Assembly: GCF_001650635.1 (NCBI RefSeq)
Contig: NZ_LWQU01000011.1
Location: forward strand, 1 to 64,000
Origin: Magnetospirillum moscoviense
GTDB lineage: Bacteria > Pseudomonadota > Alphaproteobacteria > Rhodospirillales > Magnetospirillaceae
Length of the DNA: 64,000 bases
Direction: 5' to 3'
In this document: positions 2,647 through 5,098 of the stretch, piece by piece
Position numbering within the stretch: position 1 is the stretch's first letter
Layout of the letters: each line of letters starts with the position of its first letter
Notes under the pieces: generated by a model
The model's database searches: none
Told to the model about the DNA's origin: nothing
The model's input: the letters and a program-made list of their open reading frames with translations, nothing else
Position numbers and translations under genes: made by a program

Positions 2647-5098
2647 ATGTCGTCCCGACCAGCGCCTGCCACTCGTCCTCGGTCAGCACCGTCACCCCCA
2701 GCTTCTGGGCGTCGGTCAGCTTCGAGCCGGCATTGGCCCCGGCCACCACGTAATCGGTCTTCTTCGACACCGATCCCACCACCTTGGCGCCCAGGCTTTC
2801 GGCGCGGGCCTTGGCCTCGGCCCGGGTCATGGTCACCAGTTCGCCGGTGAATACCACCGCCTTGCCGGCGACCGGGGAATTGCCGGCGACGATGATCTCG
2901 GCGTCGGTGACGGTCAACAATGGCTGTGTCTGGATGCCCGGATCAAGTCCGGGCATGACGGTATCTGACGTGTCGTCATTGCCGGGCTTGACCCACTTCT
3001 GTCCGGTTAGAATTCTCCCTCCATCGATGAACACATTGCATCGTGCGGATTTGCGGGGAGATAGGCGTTTCCGGAACAGTTGAAACCGTCTCCCCCGCTC
3101 AGCCGTCATTCCCGCGCAGGCGGGAATCCATGCATGACGCTGGAATGCCGTTTCTTCAATGGGATACAGCCGAGCGGCCGGCGCCATGGATCCCCGCCTG
3201 CGCGGGGATGACGGCTCTTGGGTGGATACGCCCTCCTCTAACCGGACAGAAGTGGGTCGAGCCCGGCAATCCACGGCAGGGCCACACAATTCGTCCAGCA
3301 CCCGCAGGTTATGCTCTTCCGCGAAGAAGGCCAGCAGGTCGCCGGCAACGCTGGGGCCGATATCCTCGATCGAGGTCAGTTCGTGATAGGCCTCGTTCTC
3401 GCGGGCGATCGCCGCCAGCATGGATTCCCGCCAGCGGGCGAAGCTGCCGTAATGGCGGGCCAGCCGCTTGGCCGTGGCCTCGCCCACCTGGGGGATGCCC
3501 AGCGCGAAGATGAAGCGTTCCAGCCCGATGGTGCGCCGGGCGTTGATGGCGGCGAACAATTTCGTCACCTTCTTCTCGCCCCAGCCGGGATAGCTTTGCA
3601 GCCGCACGATCCCCGTGTTCTTTTCTTCCAGACGGAAGATGTCGGCCGGCCCCGTGATCCAATCCTTATCGACCAGCAGGGCAATGTTCTCGTCGCCCAG
3701 CCCTTCGATGTCGAAGGCGTTGCGCGACACGAAATGGCGAAGCCGCTCCTTGACCTGGGCCTTGCACGACAGGCCGCCGGTGCAGCGCTTGGCCACCTCG
3801 CCCTCGGCCCTGACGGCATGCGCACCGCAGACCGGGCAGGTGTCGGGGAAGACGAAGGCGGAACTGTCGGCCGGGCGCCGGTCAAGCACCACCGATACCA
3901 CCTGGGGGATGACGTCGCCGGCCCGCTGGATCACCACGACGTCACCGACCCGGACATCCTTGCGGGCGATCTCGTCCTCGTTGTGAAGGGTGGCGCGCGA
4001 CACCACCACGCCGCCGACATTGACCGGCTGCAGATGGGCCACCGGGGTCAGCACCCCGGTCCGGCCGACCTGGATCTCGATCTTTTCCAGCCGGGTGGTC
4101 GCCTGCTCGGCCGGAAACTTGTGCGCGATGGCCCAGCGCGGGCTGCGGCTGACAAAGCCCAGCCGGGCCTGCCAATCGAACCGATCGACCTTGTAGACGA
4201 TGCCGTCGATATCGTAATCCAGCCCGGCGCGGTCGATCCCCAGTCGGCCGTAGACCGCCAACAGCCCGTCGGCACCCGCCACCCTTTCGATCCGGTCATT
4301 GACCGGGAAACCCCAACCGCGCAGGCGGTCCAGGAAGCTGGCATGGCTGTCGGCCACCTGATCCGAACAATCGCCCAGCGCATAGACGAACAGCGACAGC
4401 GGCCGGCTGGCGGTAATAGTCGGGTCCAACTGGCGCAACGATCCGGCGGCGGCGTTCCGGGGATTGGCGAACAGCTTGTCGCCGGCTTCTTCCTGGCGCT
4501 GGTTGAGGGCCAGGAAGTCGGCCTTGGCCATATAGACCTCGCCCCGGACCTCAAGGATGCGCGGGGCGCCCGCGATGGTTTCCGGCAACTTGCCCCGGGC
4601 GATCAGGGTGCGGATATTAAGGGTGACGTCTTCGCCCTCGGCACCGTCGCCGCGGGTGGCGGCCTGGACGAAACGGCCATCCTCGTAGCGCAAGCTGATG
4701 GACAATCCGTCGATCTTCGGCTCGGCGACGAAATTGATCGCTTGATCGGGGGCCAAGGCCAGGAAGCGGCGGATGCGCCCTTCGAATTCCCGCACGTCGT
4801 CGTCGGTGAAGGCATTGTCCAGCGACAGCATCGGCACCGCATGGCGGACCTTGCCGAACCCTTCAAGGGGCGCGGCGCCGACCTTGGCGGTCGGGCTGGC
4901 GCCGCTGACCAGTTCGGGGAAGCGTTCCTCGATCTCGCCCAGGCGACGCCGCGCCGCATCGTAGGTGGCGTCGTCCACCTCGGGGGCATCGTTCTGGTGA
5001 TAGGCGATATCCCAGCGCCCCACCTGCTCACGCAAGGTGGCGGCCTCGATACGGGCCTCGAAGGGAGTGAGGGCAGAAACGGGGATGGGCGCGCGCAT
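2645..5098 (-). CDS. ligA: NAD+-dependent DNA ligase LigA with an in-frame repeat insertion
   Basis: LigA seals nicks during replication and repair using NAD+. The 817-residue product shows, in order: the N-terminal Ia and adenylation domains with the nucleotidyl-lysine motif AEPKIDG (about residue 128), the OB fold, a four-cysteine zinc site (CPVCG followed by KRCTGGLSC), the helix-hairpin-helix domain ending near residue 603, and a C-terminal BRCT domain (about residues 735-817). The usual length is about 670-700. The excess is a stretch of roughly 123 residues between HhH and BRCT encoded by palindromic repeat DNA (2918-3286), with residues such as SPRRRGS and WIPACAGMT typical of translated intergenic repeats. 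The frame is kept and all catalytic parts are intact, so the enzyme is probably functional with a long linker. No clear ribosome site precedes the ATG at 5098, but the homology begins there. Confidence 0.93.
2918..3286. repeat. Composite palindromic repeat inserted in ligA
   Basis: About 369 bp (123 codons, boundaries approximate) interrupt the HhH-BRCT linker of ligA. Three inverted-repeat modules are visible. Module A is a hairpin, TGCCCGGA (2935-2942) with TCCGGGCA (2948-2955). Module B has 34-bp arms at 2979-3012 and 3237-3270, complementary at 33 of 34 positions. Module C, nested inside B, has 32-bp arms at 3101-3132 and 3185-3216 with two mismatches; each C arm is itself a small palindrome (CCCGCGCAGGCGGG). 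Similar half-palindromes occur at 45053-45141. No transposase is present. This looks like a non-autonomous intergenic repeat that landed in frame. Confidence 0.85.

Follow-up and report, generated by a model that had tools for sequence, protein, structure and literature searches.

We conclude that the linker between the HhH and BRCT domains of the DNA ligase LigA of Magnetospirillum moscoviense was, very probably, lengthened in frame and almost neutrally by a pair of type A REPs (REP-A) and, afterward, by a MITE mobilized by an IS4-family element. According to the history we propose, a CGTC-type REP pair would have entered the codons of the HhH-BRCT linker of ligA, adding approximately 90 bp without a shift of the frame. 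Acting in trans, a transposase of the IS4 family (DUF4372) would then have placed a non-autonomous, 261 bp long MITE in the loop of the second REP, in keeping with the REP targeting by this family at other sites of the genome. Together with the 9-bp flank, this step would have added 270 bp, and the gene would still be read through, as the MITE has one frame without stop codons in all five copies. The outcome would be a LigA with a linker about 120 residues longer, disordered and near neutral.

In the window, i.e., the whole stretch of 64,000 nucleotides analyzed, ligA covers positions 2645–5098 on the minus strand and comprises 817 codons including the insert. The Pfam domains adenylation (residues 80–331), OB (334–411) and zinc finger (420–447) share a single frame with the HhH domain directly before the insert (residues 528–600; 3299–3517, minus strand; HHH_2, E 1.4e-14) and the BRCT domain after it (residues 744–813; 2660–2869, minus strand; PF00533, E 1.5e-12). 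The adenylation motif KxDG is present as K128-I-D-G and is invariant across 35 aligned sequences. With KxDG and all domains in one frame, the ORF is predicted to encode an NAD+-dependent DNA ligase; the nearest named relatives are Magnetospirillum and Rhodospirillaceae records. No second ligA was found in the 4.16-Mb assembly of 207 contigs, and further matches of the LigA query were copies of the insert or their reverse strand. The gene is single in this assembly and presumably essential. The initial annotation, made from the sequence alone, had described about 123 codons of repeat DNA splitting HhH and BRCT in frame, and the 817-aa ORF with all its Pfam domains bears this out; its reading of palindromic repeat DNA inserted in frame in an essential ligase gene is also right, the repeats being mobile and ligA being single in the assembly and presumably essential. 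Another ORF of the window (278–2593, 771 aa) is presumably chemotaxis-receptor-like, with a C-terminal part resembling a hemerythrin domain, as read from its sequence.

LigA of the window was aligned with 108 sequences of relatives from two partly overlapping sets, giving 109 rows (L194 was left out, being too short). The HhH-BRCT linker has three residues in 100 of the 108 relative rows, four in two, 25 in four (all Alcanivorax-type LigAs) and none in two, compared to 123 in the window. Thus, the repeat DNA between the domains spans about 123 codons, and the net gain against the relatives is 120 codons (360 bp). The direct joining of VLDEL to LTVTDAE, formerly taken as the normal linker, has to be given up, since most relatives carry three residues at this place and the gain is 120 rather than 123; over all 108 rows, no conservation of the linker at the protein level was seen. 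Neither a REP nor a MITE insertion was detected at the same LigA place in these rows. Further, the insert is absent from all 11 genomes of the genus in which LigA was matched; their LigAs align up to approximately residue 605–617 and resume at approximately residue 728 with few residues between. A further genome of the genus (G002, 79% complete) gave no LigA match. Two minor observations were made among the relatives. A LigA from another genus (L282, G013:C213) carries about 21 extra residues inside HhH, a separate insertion which is not obviously REP-like, and one genome listed as 7% contaminated (G001) contains two different ligA loci (L017, L284) and is probably a mixed bin.

The insert is nested on three levels: a REP-A pair contains a MITE in the loop of its second REP, and the MITE itself contains a pair of type B REPs (REP-B). 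The former description as one palindromic repeat is, therefore, correct as to the palindromes but not as to their number, as a REP pair is interrupted by an IS4-type MITE carrying a second REP pair. REP-A copy 1 is an intact CGTC-tagged palindrome at 2931–2960 (plus strand; the REP-A pattern is exact at 2932–2960) and contributes 10 residues in the ligA frame. Copy 2 has the opposite orientation and is split by the MITE into a first half at 2974–2993 (plus strand; half-site match 18/19) and a second half at 3255–3273 (plus strand), assigned by its sequence and the arms. A 13-bp spacer separates the two copies, whose CGTC ends face each other.

Members of the CGTC REP family are defined by CGTC at one end, a stem of 8–9 bp starting with AT, a loop of 4–5 nt and a CCA tail (PMC3733652). 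The minus strand of 2931–2960 reads CGTCATGCCCGGACTTGATCCGGGCATCCA and shows a CGTC head, an AT-led stem, a five-base loop and a CCA tail. REP-A occurs at 33 places genome-wide at ≤3 mismatches (backward control 0), several of them forming close pairs of opposite orientation, in agreement with the CGTC family, whose copies are dispersed and mostly intergenic. Based on these results, the outer repeat fits the published family. The CGTC ends point inward in only two close REP-A pairs, the one in ligA and the MITE-free pair at C163:112501–112573, which is arranged like the ligA pair; they point outward in five others. CGTC REPs are described as having no dedicated transposase (PMC3733652). Two Y1-type transposase matches (L065, G000:C182:5704–6030; L066, G000:C124:14869–15195, with an internal stop) were considered as movers of the REPs, but none of the REP-A and REP-B places listed falls on their contigs, C182 and C124, and no link emerged.

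The MITE covers 2994–3254 (261 bp) and has four further copies in the genome (on C160, C198, C32 and, truncated, C196). Comparison of the arms showed terminal inverted repeats at 2994–3011 (plus strand) and 3237–3254 (minus strand), which match at 18/18 positions. The element is short, has no transposase gene and carries 18-bp terminal repeats like those of an insertion sequence (IS) in its own genome; it is, thus, a MITE. Its two REP-B units lie in opposite orientation at 3104–3130 (plus strand) and 3187–3213 (minus strand), and REP-B is present at 26 places in the genome at ≤3 mismatches, with a backward control of 0. Overall, 34-nt arms at 2978–3011 and 3237–3270 are 97% complementary, and inner arms of 46 nt (3087–3132 and 3185–3230) are 83% complementary. 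Of the arms noted before, those of 34 bp could be reproduced and those of 32 bp presumably lie within the inner arms. The copy on C32 sits between two ORFs which, judged by their sequences, are ruvC- and ruvA-like. Beside the truncated copy on C196, a 467-aa ORF (L057:175–1578) looks transposase-like by eye. Among 55 family genomes, own included, the full-length MITE is found in its own genome only. The best matches listed in other family genomes mostly cover REP-B units, and the longest of them (G006) extends over the REP-B pair with 143/262 positions at 74%. An Rfam search returned three matches at E up to 1 (mir-92, P11, Ms1), all under the gathering score, which we regard as chance matches from hairpins and composition.

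A source of the MITE is indicated by its tips, which consist of CANNNC followed by TGTCCGGTT, and TGTCCGGTT is common to the IS ends in the same genome. In total, 23 distinct IS ends were read there, mostly near contig ends. The draft assembly yielded neither a complete IS nor a transposase gene of the IS4/DUF4372 family, as contigs stop within the IS copies; a DUF4372 search of the genome gave no match, and translated IS ends contain only a 12-residue start and the C-terminal end. It was also observed that a many-copy IS4-family element terminates many contigs (C75, C95, C123, C143, C147, C181, C185 and others), nearly always inside a REP, and that its full body is absent from the parts of the assembly that were read. 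Of 35 distinct tips in the stretches retrieved from the own genome, eight of which are MITE tips, 34 abut a REP half-site scoring at least 12/19, compared to 0.5% of 20,000 random 19-mers drawn from the same stretches, where the tip count is biased upward as stretches were partly fetched with REP half-site queries, and the control comes from the same REP-rich stretches. The exception is one tip in L237 with a score of 7, which is not at a REP.

Relatives of the IS were found in a plasmid collection in 11 Rhizobium records. Three copies were read (L279–L281); they are annotated as IS4 family, measure 1272–1274 bp and have exact 9-bp direct duplications in all three cases, and the transposase of L279 contains DUF4372 and DDE_Tnp_1. 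These Rhizobium plasmid elements share with the MITE the tip TGTCCGGTTTAAA, the exact 9-bp duplication seen at its C160 copy and, judged by eye, REP-like targets, but they are autonomous and lie between annotated genes. A comparable preference has been published for ISRm22, an IS4-family element of Sinorhizobium meliloti, which inserts at the symmetry axis of REP palindromes, as in our case, but makes 6-bp instead of 9-bp duplications (PMC1525189). In contrast to ISRm22, a non-autonomous derivative is concerned here and one copy is within a gene; the likeness is one of targeting.

The flanks of the MITE copies differ. On C160, an exact direct duplication (9/9; GGCTTGACC on both sides) encloses the element, and the flanks on C198 match directly at 7/9 positions. 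In ligA, the 9-bp flank at the position of the target duplication (2985–2993, plus strand) compared with 3255–3263 matches at 8/9 positions inverted and at 4/9 directly. As it lacks a direct target duplication, the ligA copy in its present form is not the unaltered product of a transposition. The terminal repeats match at 18/18 positions in ligA, 15/18 in C160 and 16/18 in C198. Quasipalindrome correction is the copying of one arm to the other at a hairpin; the arm symmetry of the ligA copy probably arose after insertion in this way, which would give both the inverted flanks and the terminal repeats of 18/18. The striking symmetry of the 34-bp arms pointed out earlier is, thus, real (97%), but consists in part of REP halves and appears to be secondary here, given 15/18 and direct flanks in C160. 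Recombination between copies would also explain the flanks of the ligA MITE; arm-to-arm copying is weakly preferred, on the basis of a single copy.

The MITE together with the 9-bp flank amounts to 270 bp, i.e., 90 codons, and by subtraction 90 bp of the net gain fall to the REP pair with a few bases flanking it. The frame is, consequently, kept in both insertion steps (270 bp and approximately 90 bp). No stop codon is present in the ligA frame of 2918–3286, compared to two to five stops in each of the other five frames. Read in the ligA frame, each of the four further MITE copies is stop-free as well, as the single stop of C198 lies in its REP flank, and the other two frames of the MITE coding strand contain two to four stops. 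Since the frame is open in all copies, ligA received it from the element and did not acquire it through selection. In 2000 shuffles of the 369-bp stretch, at least one of six frames was open in 27%, and a given frame in approximately 5%; dinucleotide shuffles of the MITE gave 51% and 11%, respectively. With 51% of shuffled MITEs having an open frame, openness is no evidence of design. We infer that survival in an essential gene acts as a filter, which makes the surviving case look perfect.

An AlphaFold2 model based on 34 relatives has a mean pLDDT of 79.5, and HhH and BRCT are well predicted, the flanking domains being mostly >80. Residues 609–722 fall below 50 and have no secondary structure, which is partly due to this stretch having no relatives and is expected for any such stretch; residues 72–79 are below 50 as well. 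The model, thus, suggests that the added linker is probably disordered. A structure search with the LigA model found known LigA structures as best matches and nothing on the insert. At positions conserved within the genus, LigA of the window deviates at 37/453 before the insert (G009 at 40) and at 8/65 in BRCT, compared to 4 in G009 and 8 in G003 against its own set. BRCT, therefore, shows no clear decay, although with numbers as small as 8 versus 4 changes a mild relaxation may be missed. The ligA MITE deviates from the majority of the other copies by one synonymous and seven non-synonymous changes, four of these eight common to C160. No selection at the protein level is visible on the added peptide, and the linker is probably near neutral. 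Such tolerance would not be surprising, since the BRCT domain is flexibly attached. LigA of Deinococcus without BRCT keeps nick joining but binds DNA more weakly, over-expression of a BRCT-less LigA of E. coli was enough to rescue a temperature-sensitive strain, and the Thermus enzyme without BRCT kept about half its efficiency (PMC10504179). As LigAs without BRCT still work, a long linker at the HhH-BRCT junction should be easy to tolerate.

Other explanations were weighed against stepwise insertion. It is conceivable, yet unlikely, that a REP-MITE-REP block entered ligA ready-made, by recombination or by a larger transposition. The inverted rather than direct 9-bp flanks of ligA and the four differences which its MITE has in common with C160 would agree with such an event, and for three of nine ISRm22 copies recombination has indeed been proposed as the origin of imperfect flanks (PMC1525189). 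On the other hand, the split REP of C160 is not that of ligA, one base being different in each arm (GGCCGGG versus TGCCGGG), and the pair on C163 shows that the arrangement of the ligA REP pair exists without a MITE. We, therefore, retain two separate steps as the preferred reading. An assembly error, i.e., a repeat mis-joined into ligA, or a decaying gene which is no longer needed, is hardly credible: despite a draft in 207 contigs with repeats at many contig ends, the ligA copy is unlike every other copy (6/261 positions from the nearest) and the insert lies 2.9 kb inside a contig of 81.6 kb (C11), and decay is contradicted by the kept frame and BRCT domain as well as by the lack of a second ligA in the assembly.

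Little also speaks for an insert which has been put to use, with an RNA hairpin or a basic linker tuning LigA, either by RNase cleavage yielding a BRCT-less form or by extra contact with DNA. The insert RNA folds at −214.8 kcal/mol, compared to −140.5 ± 5.5 for 100 shuffles (z −13.5), and an effect of so stable a hairpin on the ligA mRNA is possible; a LigA without BRCT, which joins nicks but binds DNA less well, would fit a tuning role, too (PMC10504179). Nevertheless, hairpins accompany a REP or MITE wherever it landed, the insert is present in none of the 108 relative rows, and one synonymous versus seven non-synonymous changes reveal no constraint on the protein. We, thus, consider a function very improbable. 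Least probable of all is that the insert in its entirety represents a rickettsial palindromic element (RPE) occurring outside Rickettsia. It is an in-frame palindromic insertion in an alphaproteobacterial gene, and RPE-4 and RPE-6 of R. conorii are counted among the CGTC repeats, like the outer REP (PMC3733652), but of the 360 bp gained, 261 belong to an IS4-type MITE within a REP loop, and this MITE is full length in its own genome only among the 55 of the family.

Accordingly, the Rickettsia comparison drawn in the initial annotation is upheld for the outer repeat, through RPE-4 and RPE-6, and probably does not extend to the bulk of the insert, the MITE. RPEs resemble our case as in-frame palindromic insertions, two of them within the CGTC repeats (PMC3733652); judged by structure, they differ in that the insert described here is nested and mostly an IS4-type MITE. 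The most fitting classification is that of a CGTC-REP insertion to which a MITE insertion was added. The claim that such an event is unusual outside Rickettsia is weakened, since REPs inside ORFs have been published for several bacteria; many of these ORFs are genes of replication and repair, and one encodes a DNA ligase of O. terrae (PMC3733652). These intragenic CGTC/GTAG REPs share with ours the CGTC tag, the CCA tail, pairs of opposite orientation and the location in replication or repair ORFs. More than half of the published inserts are pairs or groups encoding 20–30 residues, and the larger ones encode 43–82 (PMC3733652), in contrast to 120 residues here, a size owed to the MITE within the REP. 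Both the presence of in-frame REPs in repair genes, among them a DNA ligase, and the insertion of IS4-family elements into REPs have, thus, been published before (PMC3733652, PMC1525189). For a MITE inside an intragenic REP, no description was found in titles and abstract openings of the open-licence literature, and as far as that search goes, the nesting and the size are new.

What sets the case apart is the three-level nesting and the size of the insert, in a single ligase gene, together with a visible target rule which would explain the second step. It offers a single-gene example of mobile repeats adding sequence to a presumably essential enzyme in which the empty state, sister copies and the target rule can all be seen, and a natural test of the length limit of the HhH-BRCT linker in LigA. 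Further, it links REPs inside genes with REP-seeking IS4-family elements, suggesting a stepwise route of protein lengthening. As a general proposal, the MITE might serve as a frame-neutral, stop-free cassette and intragenic REPs as landing pads by which IS4-family elements lengthen host proteins stepwise, essential ones included; we regard this as speculative and rather improbable. Other genes with REPs were searched for using Pfam, which is blind to genes without Pfam domains. For REP-A, 30 of the 33 places were taken as loci. Of the segments staying open for 30 or more codons in both directions, a part was submitted, namely ten segments from nine loci, none of which contained a domain. For REP-B, the loci of all 26 places were examined for segments open over 50 codons or more in both directions, and in the six segments submitted, two of them MITE copies, no REP lay within a domain. 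A Pfam family was assigned to one of the REP-B segments (L276), ribulose-phosphate 3-epimerase at residues 294–488, with the REP ahead of it at approximately residues 271–279. A second REP-B pair of opposite orientation is located in the window at 45055–45139, ahead of a ribulose-phosphate 3-epimerase domain and with no MITE tip within.
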